Positions 47,203 through 63,903 of a DNA stretch of 64,000 bases are shown piece after piece. Source of the stretch: Hymenobacter sp. DG25A. GTDB lineage: Bacteria; Bacteroidota; Bacteroidia; Cytophagales; Hymenobacteraceae. The stretch spans positions 1,674,001 through 1,738,000 of the forward strand of contig NZ_CP012623.1 of NCBI RefSeq assembly GCF_001280305.1, in the 5' to 3' direction. A program made the translations under genes and the position numbers. The notes under the pieces were generated by a model. The model made no database searches, was not told the origin of the DNA, and saw nothing but the letters and a program-made list of their open reading frames with translations. Every line of letters begins with the position of its first letter. The first letter of the stretch is position 1.

Positions 47203-48411
47203 TTAAAAATTGAGCTGCGCCTGCAGGCGCAGCAAGCCACCCCGCTGTTTGTTATCGGGCTTTTGAAAATCCTCAAAGCGGCGGGATGAAAGCGTGTACA
47301 TCGTTACCAGCTCAAAGCTGCTGACGGGCTGCCATTCCATCCCCAATTCGGCTTCGTGCACGGTATAGCTGCGCGCATCCCGCTCGTGTTTTTTGCCGCC
47401 ATCATAATACTGCAGCCGCAGGAACGGGTAGAACTGCTGTTTCTTGTAGAGCATCCTATAATTCAGCAGCACGTAGCCTCCCTGCAGCTTTTGGGTTTCA
47501 ATGCTGTCGGTGCGCGGGTTGAATTCCGGGCCGCGTCCAAAATTATATTCGGCCTGCACCCCAAACGGCTGCGGATACAGCACAAACGTAGCGGCCACCC
47601 GCTGGTCAGGGTAATTTAAATCGGGGCGGTATTTCACGCCCGCCGACAGCTGGTCTCTCCCCACCACGTATTTGCCGGAATAGGCTTGCAGCGAGGGCTC
47701 AATAATTTGCTGGCCTACTGCCAGCGGATAGGTGAGGCGGGCCACCACGTGGCGCTGATTATTGAGTTCCGGCCGGTTGGCAGTTTGCCCGTTATAGAGG
47801 CCCAGCCCCAGTACGCCATAGTCGCCGGAGCCTTTCAGGCCATCCTTCACCAGCTTACTGAACGTATGGCGCACGGCTGTAGGGGCCCAGTAGAAAAAGG
47901 CCCCCAGGTCCCGCTCGTTGGAAAGGGCGCTGTTGAGTGCGTCATTGCGGTCCAGAGCCAGGCGGTTCTGGCTGGACTGCATATTCTCGAAACCAAAAGG
48001 CACTTTACTTTGCCCCAACCGCACCCTGAACTGGCTGGCTTTGTCAAGGCCCAGGTCCATGTAGGCGTCGCGGAGCAGGCCAATGTTCAGGGAGGTACTG
48101 CCGCTGATGGTGCTGGCAAAGTCCGGCTGTATGTAGAAGTATACCCGCTCGTGCAGCTGCCCGTAGAAGATTATGCGGATGCGCCGGAGCGAAAACCCGC
48201 CATTATTGCCCCAGGATTTGTCGCACTGCTCACAGTTCAGATCGGGGTTTGTTTCGAAGAGACGGTTGTAGCGCGCCTGCACGTAGCCCCGGATACTGAA
48301 GGTTTCGGACCACTTTTTGGGCGCCACGGGTGCAGGAGCAACGGTGTCGGCCACTTGGCCGTGCGCATATCCGGAGGCCACAGCCAACAGAATGGTTAAC
48401 AGTTTCTTCAT
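47203..48411 (-). CDS. porin O/P-like outer-membrane protein
   Basis: A 402-residue outer-membrane beta-barrel with a signal peptide (about residues 1-20, ending AHGQ) and repeating amphipathic strands. Landmarks of the phosphate-selective porin O/P (OprP/OprO) group are GGFSLRRIRIIFYGQLHERV, the DAYMDLGL strand, RVRLGQSKVPFGFEN and the C-terminal LRLQAQLNF with a terminal Phe. In the relatives these trimers pass anions such as phosphate; here the substrate is unproven. Two cysteines close to the N-terminus (LNCEQCDKS) are unusual for a porin and could bind metal or form a disulfide. Confidence 0.88.
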   Translation of the reverse strand: MKKLLTILLAVASGYAHGQVADTVAPAPVAPKKWSETFSIRGYVQARYNRLFETNPDLNCEQCDKSWGNNGGFSLRRIRIIFYGQLHERVYFYIQPDFASTISGSTSLNIGLLRDAYMDLGLDKASQFRVRLGQSKVPFGFENMQSSQNRLALDRNDALNSALSNERDLGAFFYWAPTAVRHTFSKLVKDGLKGSGDYGVLGLGLYNGQTANRPELNNQRHVVARLTYPLAVGQQIIEPSLQAYSGKYVVGRDQLSAGVKYRPDLNYPDQRVAATFVLYPQPFGVQAEYNFGRGPEFNPRTDSIETQKLQGGYVLLNYRMLYKKQQFYPFLRLQYYDGGKKHERDARSYTVHEAELGMEWQPVSSFELVTMYTLSSRRFEDFQKPDNKQRGGLLRLQAQLNF

Positions 48412-51047: not shown

Positions 51048-54000
51048 GTGAATTACCCCGATTTTGAAGCCCGCTGGCGCCCGGCCGGCGGCGCCGAGCG
51101 TGCCAACTACGGCCTTTTCCTGCAGGACCTCTGCGACCTGCTGCAGGTGCCCCGCCCCGAGCCTACCACCGACCTGCCCACCCAGGACCAGTACGTGCTG
51201 GAGCGCGCCGTAGAGTTCCGCAACGGCGCCAAAAAGAGCACCGGCCGCATCGACCTCTACAAGCGCGGCTGCTTTATCCTGGAAACCAAACAAGGCACCG
51301 ATACCCCCGACGCCCAGCAGAAAGCCGAGCGGGCCGAGCTGGGTTTCAGCCCCGAAAAGCGCCGCAAGGGCCACGCCCTGCGCGGCTCCGTGAAGTGGGA
51401 GCAAATGATGCAGGCCGCCCGCCAGCAGGCCCTTGGCTACGTGCGCGCCCTGCCCGCCGAGGAGCCCCGCCCCCTGTTTGTGCTGGTGGTAGACGTGGGC
51501 TACTGCATTGATGTGTACGCCAACTTTGCCGGCGTCGGCGACTCCTTTGTGCCCTTCCCCGACCAGGCCCGCTTCCGGCTGCCGCTCTCGGCCCTGGCCG
51601 ATGAAGGCACCCGCACCCTGCTGCGCAACATCTGGCAGGAGCCCCGCGAGCTGGACCCCTCCCGCCGCGCCGCCCGCGTTACGCGGGAGCTGGCCGGCTA
51701 CCTGGCCGGCGTATCGGCGCAGCTGGAGCGGGCCGGGCACGCGCCCGAGGTAGTGGCCCAGTTCCTGATGCGCTGCCTGTTCACTATGTTTTCCGAGGAC
51801 GTGGGGCTGATTCCCAAGCACTCCTTCACGGGCATGCTGCGCACCTACTCCACCCCGGAAATGCGCGAGTTTCTGCCCGATGCTCTCGCCGGCCTCTGGC
51901 GCACCATGGATACCGGCGGCTTCTCCCCCGACCTCAAGGCCCGGCTGCGCCGCTTCAACGGCAAGCTCTTTCACGATGCCACCGCCCTGCCCCTCTCCCC
52001 CGACCAGATGGCCCTGCTGCTGAAAGCCGCCGAAGCCGACTGGACCGAGGTGGAGCCCGCCATCTTCGGTACCCTGCTGGAGCGCGCCCTCGACCCCAAA
52101 GAGCGCCACAGCCTGGGCGCCCACTACACCCCGCGCCGCTACGTAGAGCGCCTGGTGCTGCCCACCGTGCTGGAGCCCCTGCGCCGGGAGTGGACGGCCG
52201 CCCAGGCCGCCAGCGCCCGCCGCCTGGAGGAAGACCAGCCCCGCGAGGCCCGCCAGGAGCTGGTGCGCTTCCTCACCCGCCTCACCTCCCTGCGCATTCT
52301 GGACCCCGCCTGCGGCTCCGGCAACTTCCTCTACGTTACCCTGGAGCACCTCAAGCGCCTGGAGGGCGAAGTGCTGGCCGCCATCAACGCCTTTGGGCAC
52401 AGCGGCCTGCTCGATTTGGGCGGGGGCACCACCGTCTCGCCCCGGCAGCTGCTGGGCCTGGAGCTGAACCCGCGCGCCGCTGCCATTGCCGACGTGGTGC
52501 TGCGCATCGGCTACCTGCAGTGGCACCTGCGCACCCACGGCATCACCCAGCTCTCCGAGCCGCTGCTGGATGAGTACCAGAACATTCGCCAGCAGGACGC
52601 CGCCCTGCGCCACGATGCGCCCACGCCCCGCCTCGACGCCCACGGCCAGCCCGTGACGCGCTGGGACGGCACCACTCGCCTGCACCCCGCCACGGGCCAG
52701 CCCGTGCCCGATGAAACCGCCCGCACGCCCGTGCTGGACTACCCCAACCCCCAGCCCGCCGAGTGGCCCGAAGCTGACTTCATTGTGGGCAATCCGCCGT
52801 TCTTAGGAGACAAGGCAATGCGTAATTCTTTGGGTGACGGTTATGTAGAAGCGCTTCGCAAAGCATATAAAGGCATTGTTCCTGAATCTGCTGATTTGGT
52901 GATGTACTGGTGGTATAATGCGGCTCGGGCAGTTCAAACCAACCAGACAGAACGTTTTGGCTTTATCACAACAAACTCAATTACCCAGAGCTTCAACCGT
53001 CGCATTACGCAGCCTTTCTTAGAGGATTCAGCCAAACCACTTTCCTTAATTTTTGCCATCTCTGACCATCCTTGGGTTGATGCTGCGAATGGAGCTTCTG
53101 TTCGTATTGCTATGACTGCGGCAATGTCTGGTGATGTGCCCGGCACATTATTTAATGTTGAAAATGAGAAGCCCCAAGATGATGGTAGCAGTGATGTTGA
53201 ACTAGTAGCACAAGAGGGTAAAATCAACGCTGATTTAACAGTGGGTGCTGATTTAAATACTGCTAAGTCACTGAAAGCCAATATTGGCTTAACAAACGTA
53301 GGCGTAGGCCTGTATGGAGCAGGCTTCATGGTGACACCTGATGAAGCAGCAGCTTTAGGACTCGGCACGCAGCAGGGCCTTGAGCAACATATCCGTCCAT
53401 ATATCAATGGCCGTGACCTAGCCCAGAAATCAAGGGGCTATTTGGTCATCGATTTATTTGGGCTAAAGCCGGAAAATGTATTGGAACGTTTTCCTCAAGT
53501 TTATCAGCACGTTTACGAAAGAGTTAAACCCGAACGTGACCAAACTCAAGACAAAAGCACACGGGAAAATTGGTGGCAATTCGGTCGTCCTCGTTCCGAA
53601 TTACGTCCGGCTCTTGCAGGTTTGTCTCGTTTCATAGTCACTACTCGCACGGCGCGTCACCGCATCTTTAGCTTCCTTCCCGGCAATACACTTGCCGACC
53701 AAAAGCTTGTCGTTTTCGCCCTTGATGACGCGCTCGAATTAGGAGTATTGTCAAGTCGTATTCATACTGCTTGGGCTGCTGCTGCAGGTGGCTGGCTAGG
53801 TGTTGGTAATGATGCTACTTACAACCACAGTGACTGTTACCTAAAATTCCCCTTCCCCGCCGCCACGCCCGCGCAGCAGGCCCGCATCCGCGAGTTGGCC
53901 GAACAGCTCGACGCCCACCGCAAGCGCCAGCAGGCCCAGCACCCCAGCCTCACCCTCACCGACCTCTACAACGTGGTGGAGAAGCTGCGCGCCAACCAGC

Positions 54001-54527
54001 CCCTCACCCCCAAAGACCAGACCGTGAACCAGCAGGGCCTCGCCTCCGTGGTCCTCAGCCTGCACCAGCAGCTGGATGCCGCCGTAGCCGACGCCTACAG
54101 CTGGCCCGCCACCCTGCCCGAAGCCGACATCCTGCAACGCCTCGTGCGCCTTAACCACGAGCGCGCCCAGGAAGAAAAGGCCGGCCAAATCCGCTACCTG
54201 CGCCCCGCCTACCAGGCCCCCGAAACCGTGCAAACCGAAATGGCCCTGCCCGCTGTCGAAAGCACGAAGAACGGCGCAAACCAGGGAGGGGTGGCCGAAG
54301 GCCGGGGTGGTCAATCGGTGAACGAAGCCCAGCAGCCCTGGCCCACGGAGCTGGCCCCGCAAATGCAGGCCCTCCGCGACGCCCTCCAGCAAGCCGCCCA
54401 GCCCCAAACCGCCGCCCAGGTAGCCGCCCGCTTCAAGCGCCTCAAACCCGAAAAAGCCCAACCCCTGCTGGAAACCCTAGCCGCCCTCAGCCTAATCCGC
54501 CACACAGAAGAAGGCTACATGGCGTAA
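51048..54527 (+). CDS. MmeI-like (type IIL) restriction-modification enzyme
   Basis: A single 1,159-residue protein that would both methylate adenine and cut DNA. The N-terminus has the nuclease pattern D-x9-E-x-K (Asp69, Glu79, Lys81 in LETKQ), as in MmeI. A helical linker follows, then the N6-adenine methyltransferase with motif [10 protein letters not shown] from Asp419 and motif IV NPPF (582-585), a probable target-recognition region to about 930, and a C-terminal tail with a wHTH-like end. From about 52790 to 53855 the DNA drops to about 38% GC in sampled lines, versus about 74% on both sides, a sharp mosaic. Methylating its own site would protect the host DNA. The partners of BREX, DISARM or type I systems are absent. 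The substrate site is unknown. Confidence 0.88.
52790..53855 (+). other. low-GC exchange cassette inside the restriction-modification gene
   Basis: Counted by hand, lines 52861-52920 and 53221-53280 each hold 23 G+C of 60, whereas 52441-52500 holds 45 and 53881-53940 holds 44. The change begins within motif IV (NPPF) and ends near [12 protein letters not shown], a common junction after the target-recognition domain. The frame is open throughout and motif IV is intact, so a recombined, functional cassette is likely. Confidence 0.85.
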
Positions 54528-54571: not shown

Positions 54572-54977
54572 AGAAAGCTAGTTCCCCTCCTCAGCTGAGG
54601 AGGGGTTAGGGGTGGTTGATAATCGTTGTTTATTAGGAACGTCATGCAGAGCGTCAGCGAAGCATCTCGCGTGCTGACGTTGTGGTGCTAACGGTCATGC
54701 TGAGCGGAGTCGAACCGAAGGTCGCCGTAGGCAAGCATCTCTCCCTCTTCGCCTGTCATCCTGAGCTTGCGAAGGACCTTATCACACCTGCACGACTTGC
54801 ATAACAACGACTCGTTCTAGCGTGATAAGGTCCTTCGCAAGCTCAGGATGACAGATAGGGTGGCAACCTCAGCACGCGAGATGCTTCGCTGACGCTCAGC
54901 ATGACGTTTGGTTGGGGTAAACAATGATTATCAACCACCCCTAGCCCCTCCTTATCTGTGGAGGGAAACTAGCTTCT
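54572..54977. repeat. three-level nested palindrome (R5)
   Basis: Outermost arms of about 60 bases (54572-54632 and 54918-54977) share GAGGGG, TAGGGGTGGTTGATAATC and related words at about 85% identity. A second pair (54638-54676 and 54870-54908) matches in 38 of 39 positions. The innermost unit has perfect 33-bp arms (54753-54785 and 54822-54854). It begins about 45 bases after the restriction-modification stop and fills most of the gap to the next gene. Confidence 0.93.
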
Positions 54978-61468: not shown

Positions 61469-61567
61469 GGTTGTTGCCTGACAATGGCTCCCAGTGCTTC
61501 CGTTGTAGAACAGCACTGCAACCTCCTTGCACTACTCTCCGCAAACCACTGCGAGAAAAACGAATTG

Positions 61568-61612
61568 CAAAGATAAGGTGTTTCCTAGCCCCAACCGAAA
61601 GCCGTACCTTTG
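61568..61612. promoter_or_regulatory. divergent promoter region for DUF3109 gene and helicase gene
   Basis: CAAAGATA at 61568-61575 (TATCTTTG, minus strand) faces the DUF3109 gene and TACCTTTG at 61605-61612 faces the helicase gene 30 bases before its ATG. Both match TAnnTTTG. A CAA at 61592-61594 could be the minus -33 box at 16 bases. Confidence 0.5.
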
Positions 61613-61641
61613 CTAATAAGCCAACACGCTTAGTTTACCGA

Positions 61642-63903
61642 ATGGCACTAGATTATCATAAATTACTGAATCAGTCGCAGGCGGCGGCGGTGCTCCACAC
61701 CGAAGGCCCTTGCATGATTATAGCCGGTGCGGGCTCCGGCAAAACGCGGGTGCTGACTTACCGCATAGCACACCTGCTGGAAAAAGGCGTGGATCCGTTT
61801 AATATCCTGGCCCTCACCTTCACCAACAAGGCCGCCAAAGAAATGCGCGCCCGTATTGAGAAGGTGGTAGGCCCGGAAGCGAAAAACGTGTGGATGGGTA
61901 CCTTCCACAGCATCTTCGCCCGTATTCTGCGCTCCGAGGCTGACAAAATCGGCTTCCCCCGCTCCTTCACTATCTATGACACGCAGGACTCCAAAACCCT
62001 GCTGGGCCAGATTGTGAAAGAACTGGAGCTGGACGATAAGCTTTACAAGCCCGCCATGGTGCTGGGGCGCATTTCTGCCGCCAAAAACAAGCTCATTTCC
62101 GTCAATCAGTACGTGAATGACCCCGTTATCCGGCAGGACGACGAGGCAGCTTTGCGGCCCAAGATTGGCGCTATCTACCAGCAATACCAGCAGCGCTGCT
62201 TCAAGGCCGGCGCTATGGACTTCGATGATCTGCTGTTCAACACCAATGTGCTGTTCAAAGACCATCCGGATGTACTCAACAAGTACCAGCACATCTTTAA
62301 GTATGTGATGGTGGACGAGTACCAGGACACCAACTATTCCCAGTACCTCATCACGCGCAAGCTGGCCGCCAAAGACCGGAATATTTGCGTGGTGGGTGAT
62401 GATGCGCAGAGCATCTACGCCTTCCGGGGCGCCGATATTCAGAACATCCTCAACTTCGAGAAAGACTACCCGGAGCTGCAGGTGTTCAAGCTGGAGCAGA
62501 ACTACCGCTCTACCAAGAACATTGTTAAGGCGGCCAACTCCGTCATCAAAAACAACCAGGCCCAGCTGCGCAAAGACGTTTTCTCCGACAACGAGGAAGG
62601 CCCGCTGATTGAGGTACTGAAAGCCGCTTCCGACAACGAAGAAGGCAAGCTGGTGGCCAACAGCATCTACGAGGACAAGATGAACCAGCATCTTTCCTTC
62701 GATGACTTTGCCATTCTGTACCGCACCAACGCCCAGAGCCGGGCCATGGAAGAAGCCCTGCGCAAGCTCAACATCAAGTACAAAATCATTGGGGGTCTGA
62801 GCTTCTACCAGCGCAAGGAAATCAAGGATTTGGTAGCCTATCTGCGCCTCACGGTAAACCCGAATGATGAGCAGGCCCTGCGCCGCGTGATTAACTACCC
62901 CAAGCGCGGCATCGGGGATACCACAATCAGCAAGCTGATTAACGCGGCCGAGGAGTCCAACCACACCATCTGGGAAGTGGTAGCCAACGCCGACCAGTTC
63001 CTGCCCACCCGCGTGTCTAACCCGGTGGTAGACTTCGCCGAGAAAATCAAGAGCTACACGGCCGTGGCAGGCAAGGAAGATGCTTTTGAGGCGGCCAAGT
63101 TCATTGCCAAGAACTCGGGCATGATTGAGGAGTTGTATGCCGATAAGAGCATTGAAGGCCTCTCCCGCTACGAGAACATTCAGGAACTACTGAACGGTAT
63201 CAAGGCGTACACTGAGGATGCCGAGCGCGAGGACAAGACCCTGGGCGCCTTCCTGCAGGACATTGCCCTGGTAACGGACTCCGACCTGAAAGACGCCAAG
63301 GACGAAGGCGAATCCGTGACGCTGATGACGATTCACTCGGCCAAGGGCCTGGAGTTTCGCAACGTCTACATCGTAGGCATGGAGGAAAACCTCTTCCCCA
63401 GCCAGATGATGATTACCTCGCGGGCTGATCTGGAAGAAGAGCGCCGCTTGTTCTACGTGGCTATTACGCGGGCCGAGAAAAAGCTGACGCTGAGCTACGC
63501 TACCTCCCGCTACCAGTGGGGCAACCTGCGCAGCTGCGAGAAAAGCCGCTTTCTGGACGAAATCGACCCGCAGTACGTGGACTTCAAGTTCTCAGCGGGA
63601 CCGGGTTCCGGCCCCGGCGCGGGCGACTCCCCCTTCGGGCACGTGTTTGAGCGTCGCAGCAACCTGATTCCGCCGGCCCCACGCAAAACCGTAGCCACCA
63701 AGTACGTAGCGCCTTCTGATTTTCAGCCCTCGGATACCAGCAACCTGCAAACCGGGCAGCGCGTGGAGCATCCTAAGTTTGGCTTTGGCAAGGTAACCCA
63801 GCTGGAAACCCAGGCCGGCTCTACCAAGGCCATTATCCACTTTGAAGAAGTAGGCGAGAAAACGTTATTGCTGAGTTTTGCGAAATTGCGGGTACTGGGC
63901 TAG
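61642..63903 (+). CDS. UvrD/PcrA-type DNA helicase
   Basis: Superfamily 1A 3'-5' helicase for nucleotide excision repair, mismatch repair or replication-conflict resolution. The 753-residue protein has helicase motif I GAGSGKT (29-35), the Walker B/motif II segment VDEYQDTN, motif III DDAQSIYAFRGAD, motif IV LEQNYRST, the motif V region TIHSAKGLEF and motif VI YVAITRAEKKL. The C-terminal tail ends in a Tudor-like PcrA segment (GQRVEHPKFGFGKV) that binds RNA polymerase in PcrA. ATG 61642 is preferred to the long upstream frame. A short repeat begins after it at the window edge. Confidence 0.95.
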   Translation: MALDYHKLLNQSQAAAVLHTEGPCMIIAGAGSGKTRVLTYRIAHLLEKGVDPFNILALTFTNKAAKEMRARIEKVVGPEAKNVWMGTFHSIFARILRSEADKIGFPRSFTIYDTQDSKTLLGQIVKELELDDKLYKPAMVLGRISAAKNKLISVNQYVNDPVIRQDDEAALRPKIGAIYQQYQQRCFKAGAMDFDDLLFNTNVLFKDHPDVLNKYQHIFKYVMVDEYQDTNYSQYLITRKLAAKDRNICVVGDDAQSIYAFRGADIQNILNFEKDYPELQVFKLEQNYRSTKNIVKAANSVIKNNQAQLRKDVFSDNEEGPLIEVLKAASDNEEGKLVANSIYEDKMNQHLSFDDFAILYRTNAQSRAMEEALRKLNIKYKIIGGLSFYQRKEIKDLVAYLRLTVNPNDEQALRRVINYPKRGIGDTTISKLINAAEESNHTIWEVVANADQFLPTRVSNPVVDFAEKIKSYTAVAGKEDAFEAAKFIAKNSGMIEELYADKSIEGLSRYENIQELLNGIKAYTEDAEREDKTLGAFLQDIALVTDSDLKDAKDEGESVTLMTIHSAKGLEFRNVYIVGMEENLFPSQMMITSRADLEEERRLFYVAITRAEKKLTLSYATSRYQWGNLRSCEKSRFLDEIDPQYVDFKFSAGPGSGPGAGDSPFGHVFERRSNLIPPAPRKTVATKYVAPSDFQPSDTSNLQTGQRVEHPKFGFGKVTQLETQAGSTKAIIHFEEVGEKTLLLSFAKLRVLG

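Follow-up and report, generated by a model that had tools for sequence, protein, structure and literature searches.

How does a single gene come to carry, inside one open frame, a block of DNA far poorer in G+C than the sequence on either side of it? This question is raised by an MmeI-like restriction-modification gene of Hymenobacter sp. DG25A. Enzymes of the MmeI family (type IIL) recognise an asymmetric site, cut the DNA about 20 bp away and methylate one strand. An earlier note on this DNA had offered, as the simplest reading, that the recognition part of the gene was replaced by recombination with DNA from a low-GC donor. We analysed the gene in the window, the whole stretch of 64,000 nt considered here (NZ_CP012623.1, 1,674,001-1,738,000); all coordinates are positions in that stretch.

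The low-GC block and its GC-rich flanks

The predicted protein matches four domains, MmeI_N, MmeI_hel, MmeI_Mtase and MmeI_TRD, each above its Pfam cut-off, and scores 12.8 bits with the MmeI_C profile against a cut-off of 27. The best PADLOC model was REase_MTase_IIG (1446 bits over residues 4-1156), with the DrmMI and PglX models weaker, and MmeI itself (5hr4, E 1.4e-38) was the sole PDB sequence matched at E 0.001. As in MmeI, nuclease, helical spacer, methylase and TRD follow one another in a single chain; unlike MmeI, the DG25A enzyme has 1159 rather than 919 residues and a longer C part. D-X9-E-X-K is the nuclease motif, with the spacing that it has in MmeI, and DPACGSGNF (residues 419-427) is methylase motif I. 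Read from the sequence, the nuclease motif and methylase motifs I and IV are intact in this one chain. The features of the gene are the following:

51048..54527, + strand: MmeI-like type IIL/IIG restriction-modification gene, an open frame of 1159 codons
51048..52772, + strand: N part, residues 1-575, with nuclease, helical spacer and first methylase half; GC3 0.90, conserved
51243..51290, + strand: nuclease motif D69-X9-E79-X-K81, read from the sequence
52302..52328, + strand: methylase motif DPACGSGNF, read from the sequence
52773..53852, + strand: low-GC module, probably exchanged, residues 576-935, with second methylase half and TRD; GC3 0.39, borders from changepoints
52791..52802, + strand: methylase motif IV, NPPF (582-585), left exchange border, aligned with MmeI 481-484
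53115..53177, + strand: alternative left exchange border, residues 690-710, from the changepoint histogram and the L009-L019 identity profile
53322..53861, + strand: Pfam MmeI_TRD match, residues 759-938, from a profile search
53841..53861, + strand: LKFPFPA (932-938), right exchange border, aligned with about MmeI 818-824
53853..54527, + strand: C part, residues 936-1159, conserved and GC-rich; GC3 0.84

Judged by sequence, the gene stands alone, with no separate methylase and no BREX or DISARM partners: MmeI_Mtase has one match in the whole DG25A genome, and of the nine neighbouring ORFs compared with PADLOC just two matched, a UvrD-like helicase 7 kb downstream and, weakly, the NHL propeller gene that lies upstream. 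The helicase (61471-63903, 810 aa) matches the PADLOC RTasHel and GajB helicase models and is perhaps an ordinary UvrD/PcrA. The gap that follows the restriction gene (54575-54975) is filled by three nested inverted repeats with arms of 43-68 nt that are 85-91% complementary.

The earlier note had placed a low-GC block at 52790..53855, and this block is real. Both lines sampled in it contain 23 G+C in 60, against 45 and 40 in the 60-nt lines just before it (52681-52800) and 44 and 39 in those just after it (53881-54000). The sliding-window profile that the note recommended falls from 0.75 to 0.445 and comes back to 0.68 in 200-base windows, and the frame indeed remains open throughout its 1,159 codons. 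GC3 is 0.896 for residues 1-575, 0.389 for 576-935 and 0.839 for 936-1159. When two changepoints were fitted to GC3, they fell at residues 575 and 935 (likelihood ratio about 300). NPPF and LKFPFPA, the motifs that had been named as the limits of the block, lie no more than about 10 residues from them.

To estimate the composition of the rest of the 3.78-Mb genome, we sampled twenty 20-kb stretches. They contained 286 ORFs with 150 aa or more, whose GC3 had a mean of 0.70 and a maximum of 0.82. Both flanks, each taken whole, exceed every one of these ORFs; thus the block is low and the flanks are also high for this genome. Among 2,775 overlapping 200-codon segments (99th percentile 0.84), 2.0% were at or below 0.40 and none reached 0.89, and by this measure only the N part lies outside the entire sampled range. 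The GC-rich flanks, unusual for this genome, are a feature that the earlier note missed.

Flanks and centre have different histories

A survey of 120 Hymenobacter genomes found a match at E 0.001 in 94 of them. We took 76 loci, one of which is the window's gene; 65 had a frame of at least 1000 aa and, with the window's gene, gave 66 aligned genes, L053 and L054 being identical and both included. Ten loci (L002, L005, L032, L034, L041, L058, L069, L074, L075 and L076) were left out because their frames were too short.

Between the DG25A gene and locus L004 of genome G076, nucleotide identity is 93.8% over residues 1-575, 57.8% over 576-935 and 93.3% over 936-1030 (86.8% over 936-1159); the N parts are 95.8% identical as protein. 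L004 occupies the same chromosomal site in G076: six of nine window neighbours have matches there at 90-96% protein identity (L101), on both sides of the gene and in the same order. Neither the NHL gene nor the one at 47203 was found at the G076 site. Genome G092 also has the site, with three neighbours at 54-90% (L102). In the other 38 of the 40 loci tested, no neighbours were shared with the window, except for a 29% match in L092.

Separate trees were built for each part, as the earlier note had advised, by a quick method from 28 rows: 26 of the 66 genes and two proteins. P0002 is the protein of Hymenobacter sp. 5414T-23. The groups used in the AU tests were chosen after the pairwise identities were known. 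In the N tree, DG25A joined L004 with a support of 98, and its grouping with P0002 was rejected (p-AU 2.4e-71). In the TRD tree, DG25A joined P0002 with a support of 97, and its grouping with L004 was rejected (p-AU 2.4e-69). The C tree (27 rows) joined DG25A with L004 at 84; there the grouping with P0002 was not rejected at 0.05 (p-AU 0.059). The flanks and the centre of this gene have different histories: the centre groups with Hymenobacter sp. 5414T-23 and H. canadensis, and the flanks group with G076. These results support the view that recombination replaced the recognition part: the evidence is given both by a relative at the same site with similar flanks and another centre, such as the earlier note had suggested looking for, and by the conflict between the N and TRD trees.

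Over 2,145 pairs of genes, with pairs lacking a part dropped, identities correlated at 0.61 between N and C, 0.21 between centre and N, and 0.10 between centre and C. When distances were compared in 80-residue windows, N 161-400 correlated with C 961-1040 at 0.56-0.62 and N 1-480 correlated with TRD 721-880 at -0.08 to 0.10; in the DnaE control, mean correlations were 0.30-0.67 whatever the separation. The N part is itself mosaic, and its first 80 residues correlate with residues 241-480 at only 0.17-0.19. Other pairs also have like flanks and unlike centres. N, centre and C are 98.8, 60.8 and 98.1% identical in L028-L030 and 98.3, 53.8 and 89.1% identical in L007-L010, that is, centres at 54-61% beside N parts at 98-99% and C parts at 89-98%. 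Conversely, L025 and L062 are closer in the centre (88.4%) than in N (73.7%) or C (59.1%). Left changepoints of the 66 genes are scattered, with most at 575-590 (9 of 66) and at 690-710 (13 of 66, the commonest); right changepoints fall within 915-940 in 46 of 66.

We propose that homologous recombination in the conserved flanks swaps the module. The swapped unit would run from methylase motif IV through the end of the TRD, and the change would have taken place in either the DG25A or the G076 lineage. In the alignment with MmeI, the left border maps onto motif IV (481-484) and the right one onto the end of the TRD (825). NPPF aligns directly ahead of K487, S488 and K489, through which MmeI touches bases 2 and 4 of its site; LKFPFPA adjoins residue 825, where the MmeI TRD ends (PMC4833311). 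By this alignment, the exchanged module would start at the DNA-reading methylase loop and take in the whole TRD. One TRD is common to both activities of type IIG and IIL enzymes, which hence change jointly (PMC4833311), and the earlier note's statement that cutting and methylation are coupled through one recognition domain agrees with this. An exchange would be predicted to change the site read by both the nuclease and the methylase at once.

Local inversion and switching from silent cassettes were also considered. Spare TRD copies were sought in the genome and one match only was obtained; inverted repeats whose arms lie in the gene were at most 29 nt long (79%), and the listing of direct repeats covered 20 of 32 families. 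As these searches gave neither a spare copy nor long flanking repeats, this candidate was rejected.

Some incomplete copies of the gene deserve description. L284 (G007:C17) matches the N part (1-552) at 86% and the C tail (998-1156) at 58%, and the sequence between them has no match to the DG25A centre; its frame is 572 aa, ending after the N part, in the ORF list, versus an open frame of 1133 aa in the genome search. Four draft contigs (G064:C17, G065:C41, G039:C7 and G108:C587) end within or just past a partial copy of the gene, as would be expected if alleles vary within the sample or if the gene is repeated in the genome. Fragments of the restriction-gene tail (about the last 33 to 200 codons) recur downstream in L279 (12320-12724 and 14985-15092), L281 (10286-10813 and 12643-13008) and L285 (13318-13422), alternating with long beta-propeller genes. 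SBBP repeats are present in L279 and L281, and a secretion-system sorting tail scores just above the cut-off in L279 and just below it in L281. The fragments and propellers look like an array of repeated units.

Persistent low GC in the circulating modules

Across the family, these modules keep a low GC content. Centre GC3 is below that of the N part in all 66 full-length genes of the genus, DG25A included, and below both flanks in 60, the exceptions being L051, L053, L054, L070, L071 and L072; a free changepoint model recovered a GC3 valley in 62 of 66. At 41 loci of the family, with surroundings of 41-69% GC, the centre was below the mean of its neighbours in every case and below each single neighbour in 33, with mean offsets of -0.33 for the centre and +0.16 for the N part. 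The N part was above the host mean at every one of the 41 family loci and at 109 of 114 overall, a total in which Pontibacter L183 and L194 repeat L091 and L090 and so are counted twice. These neighbour baselines covered 20 kb, except for the window (64 kb) and L092 (12.5 kb), and were built on greedy longest ORFs, a number of which must be spurious.

A scan of named genomes added 79 usable loci, mostly from Proteobacteria and including three from Pontibacter. In this wider set, drawn mostly from other phyla, the centre was below both flanks in 71 of 79. Where at least five neighbours were present (65 of 79), the centre was below the host mean in 44 and the N part above it in 62. The centre was also below the N part in seven of eight Bacteroidota loci from outside the family. 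The sole clearly low-GC host sampled, Acinetobacter sp. MB5 (L188), had values of 0.23/0.23/0.24 next to neighbours at 0.32 and showed no contrast between flanks and centre.

DnaE served as a control in 30 genomes; its GC3 varied within the gene by 0.12 (200-codon windows), versus 0.45 in the restriction gene. In the 17 genomes with both genes, the N part exceeded DnaE by +0.03 (13 of 17, p 0.05), the centre was below DnaE in 17 of 17, and the C part was above it in 10 of 16. Because the N part barely exceeds DnaE and the centre is always below it, the flanks resemble core genes in composition and it is the centre that stands out. The idea that the GC excess of the flanks signals a recombination hot spot was dropped when this comparison shrank the excess to +0.03. 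In other genera of the family, the GC excess was highest at residues 476-525 (+0.30, +0.28) and 951-975 (+0.33), and amounted to +0.22 and +0.16 over the 50 residues adjoining the left junction and to +0.06 at the start of the gene. Within the genus, a gradient toward the junctions was weak in the N part (t -1.9) and clearer in the C part (t -3.3).

A recent import of the centre directly from a low-GC organism would account for a centre GC3 of 0.39 beside a mean of 0.70 for the other window ORFs. We searched residues 585-935 against 5.8 billion proteins and scored the 7,991 candidates sharing most words, which gave 7,165 hits. Among the candidates scored, however, the best foreign centres were those of congeners, Hymenobacter sp. 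5414T-23 at 88% and H. canadensis at 82%, the latter match spanning 85% of the region. Of the 7,165 hits 120 were listed, and the remaining 117 foreign proteins on that list were at 71% or less. Among the candidates scored, no low-GC taxon had a centre more similar to this one than those of congeners. In an alignment of 171 sequences, the closest TRD lay within the genus for 63 of the 66 members and, for the remaining three, in a different genus of the same family, g6, where the surrounding DNA has 63-69% GC. L027 and L080, from different genera, share a TRD that is 86% identical and AT-rich in both (GC3 0.42 and 0.44), between flanks of 0.90-0.94. As AT-rich centres are, moreover, the rule in the genus and family, we consider recent import very unlikely.

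A low-GC donor is neither needed nor supported: low GC is typical of this segment in nearly all relatives, and the closest centres scored are congeneric. The simplest reading offered by the earlier note is thus supported in its first half, replacement by recombination, and not in its second, the origin in a low-GC donor. Our own reading, to which we give a probability of roughly 0.85, is that a type IIL module has been exchanged among alleles and species of Hymenobacter and its relatives, and that the low GC is lasting rather than the mark of a recent low-GC donor.

Origin and meaning of the AT-rich composition

Why, then, is the module AT-rich? One explanation is that its composition is a relic of older entries from AT-richer sources, with slow amelioration to that of the host; we find this plausible, if somewhat short of an even chance. 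Centre GC3 is higher where the genus holds close kin of the centre (Spearman 0.59, p 1.6e-7, n=66), with a mean of 0.49 in the 41 centres that have kin above 70% versus 0.38 in the 25 that do not. A likelihood fit to 12 close TRD triples gave an equilibrium of 0.82 versus a current value of 0.57, although its interval is wide (0.58-0.94) and the model is biased by rate variation, which in simulations drags a true 0.9 to 0.7. Simulated sets gave 0.76 under amelioration and 0.52 and 0.58 at equilibrium, and the fitted 0.82 lies closer to the first. However, no low-GC source was found among what was searched, and centre GC3 does not track flank GC3 within the genus (rho -0.09).

The tests of base change disagree. 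Parsimony gave equilibrium GC values of 0.84 for N, 0.53 for the TRD, 0.79 for C and 0.84 for DnaE, the TRD pairs being near saturation with about 44% of sites differing; likelihood on closer triples gave 0.58, 0.82, 0.66 and 0.70, respectively. For shared TRDs we lean toward amelioration.

A second explanation is a local regime. If the module rarely meets a homologous partner, a GC-raising force such as GC-biased gene conversion would be absent and AT-biased mutation would win. Data at the level of genes have been used to argue that such conversion operates in bacteria (PMC4450053). Fourfold GC in our genes is regional and nearly independent of residue conservation: from variable to invariant residues it was 0.88, 0.88, 0.87 and 0.88 in N, 0.45, 0.44, 0.46 and 0.45 in the centre, and 0.79, 0.85, 0.85 and 0.86 in C. 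The contrast is also repeated over phyla, and it recurs in the type I loci of the genus. All 33 candidate ORFs at 20 such loci were Pfam-scanned and included 17 HsdS, one per locus in 17 of 20 loci. HsdS GC3 was below that of HsdM in 17 of 17. The first 15 HsdS differed from HsdM by a mean of -0.27 and were below the host in 14 cases; the later two had 0.39 versus 0.65 (L265) and 0.43 versus 0.79 (L268). HsdM GC3 exceeded the host in 14 of 20 loci. On the other hand, the flanks hardly exceed the core gene DnaE (+0.03), the gradient toward the junction is weak in N, and Acinetobacter L188 lacks the contrast. The supporting parsimony figure of 0.53 rests on near-saturated pairs and the likelihood fit points the opposite way, and in a survey of ten species a strong correlation of GC with recombination was seen only in Streptococcus pyogenes (PMC4866539). 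We hold this explanation only tentatively.

We also noted that at the type I loci (L251-L270) HsdM GC3 reaches 0.91 (L258), and that adjoining genes of about 1000 aa, probably HsdR, are often at 0.8-0.89.

Selection on codons for expression or accuracy could in principle make catalytic parts GC-rich and the recognition part AT-rich, and the flanks are overall more conserved than the centre. Within a region, however, conservation class hardly matters; because fourfold GC is flat across the classes, conservation does not explain the contrast. The ORF holding ribosomal protein L2 has a GC3 of 0.605, so expression does not seem to explain it either. In the unannotated 20-kb stretch around L2, GC3 ranges from 0.48 to 0.70, and none of the 24 ORFs with 100 aa or more is above 0.70. 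We regard codon selection as extremely improbable.

The exchange itself resembles what is known of type I systems. TRD exchange and 'domain movement' in HsdS have been described in Helicobacter pylori and Moraxella catarrhalis (PMC3983042, PMC6241649, PMC3077401); there too recognition domains move between conserved flanks, and those papers propose homologous recombination, as we do. For type III loci, the Moraxella study reports no movement of this sort from one locus to another. Unlike HsdS, the DG25A case concerns a bifunctional type IIL gene, the exchanged unit may include half of the methylase domain, and the exchange is between species. The DG25A gene also has a strong contrast in composition, whereas the HsdS papers, in the sections available, do not mention one. 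In Streptococcus suis, the low GC of whole type I systems was taken as a hint of recent acquisition (PMC5198162). A difference in GC between core and accessory DNA has been reported (PMC5303225), and our results resemble the hypothesis of GC-biased gene conversion, in which DNA that recombines or belongs to the core has more GC than DNA that does not recombine or is accessory (PMC4450053, PMC5303225). The published contrasts are between genes or parts of genomes, whereas a contrast of the DG25A type lies inside single genes. A literature search on titles and abstract openings met no report of AT-rich TRDs as a rule.

The module-exchange system is of a known kind, and the family-wide border in composition within one gene is the part worth following. 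One consequence is that low GC in a recognition domain is unsafe as the signature of a donor. Another is that natural TRD exchange in type IIL enzymes, with its preferred borders, would be useful for the engineering of specificity. Last, it is conceivable, though we think it doubtful, that, across bacteria, the recognition modules of restriction-modification genes make up a separate compartment of base composition, in which rare, partnerless alleles escape GC-biased gene conversion while their flanks remain core-like. If a lack of GC-raising recombination is the true cause, each such gene would be a controlled test, within one reading frame, of the base-composition question.
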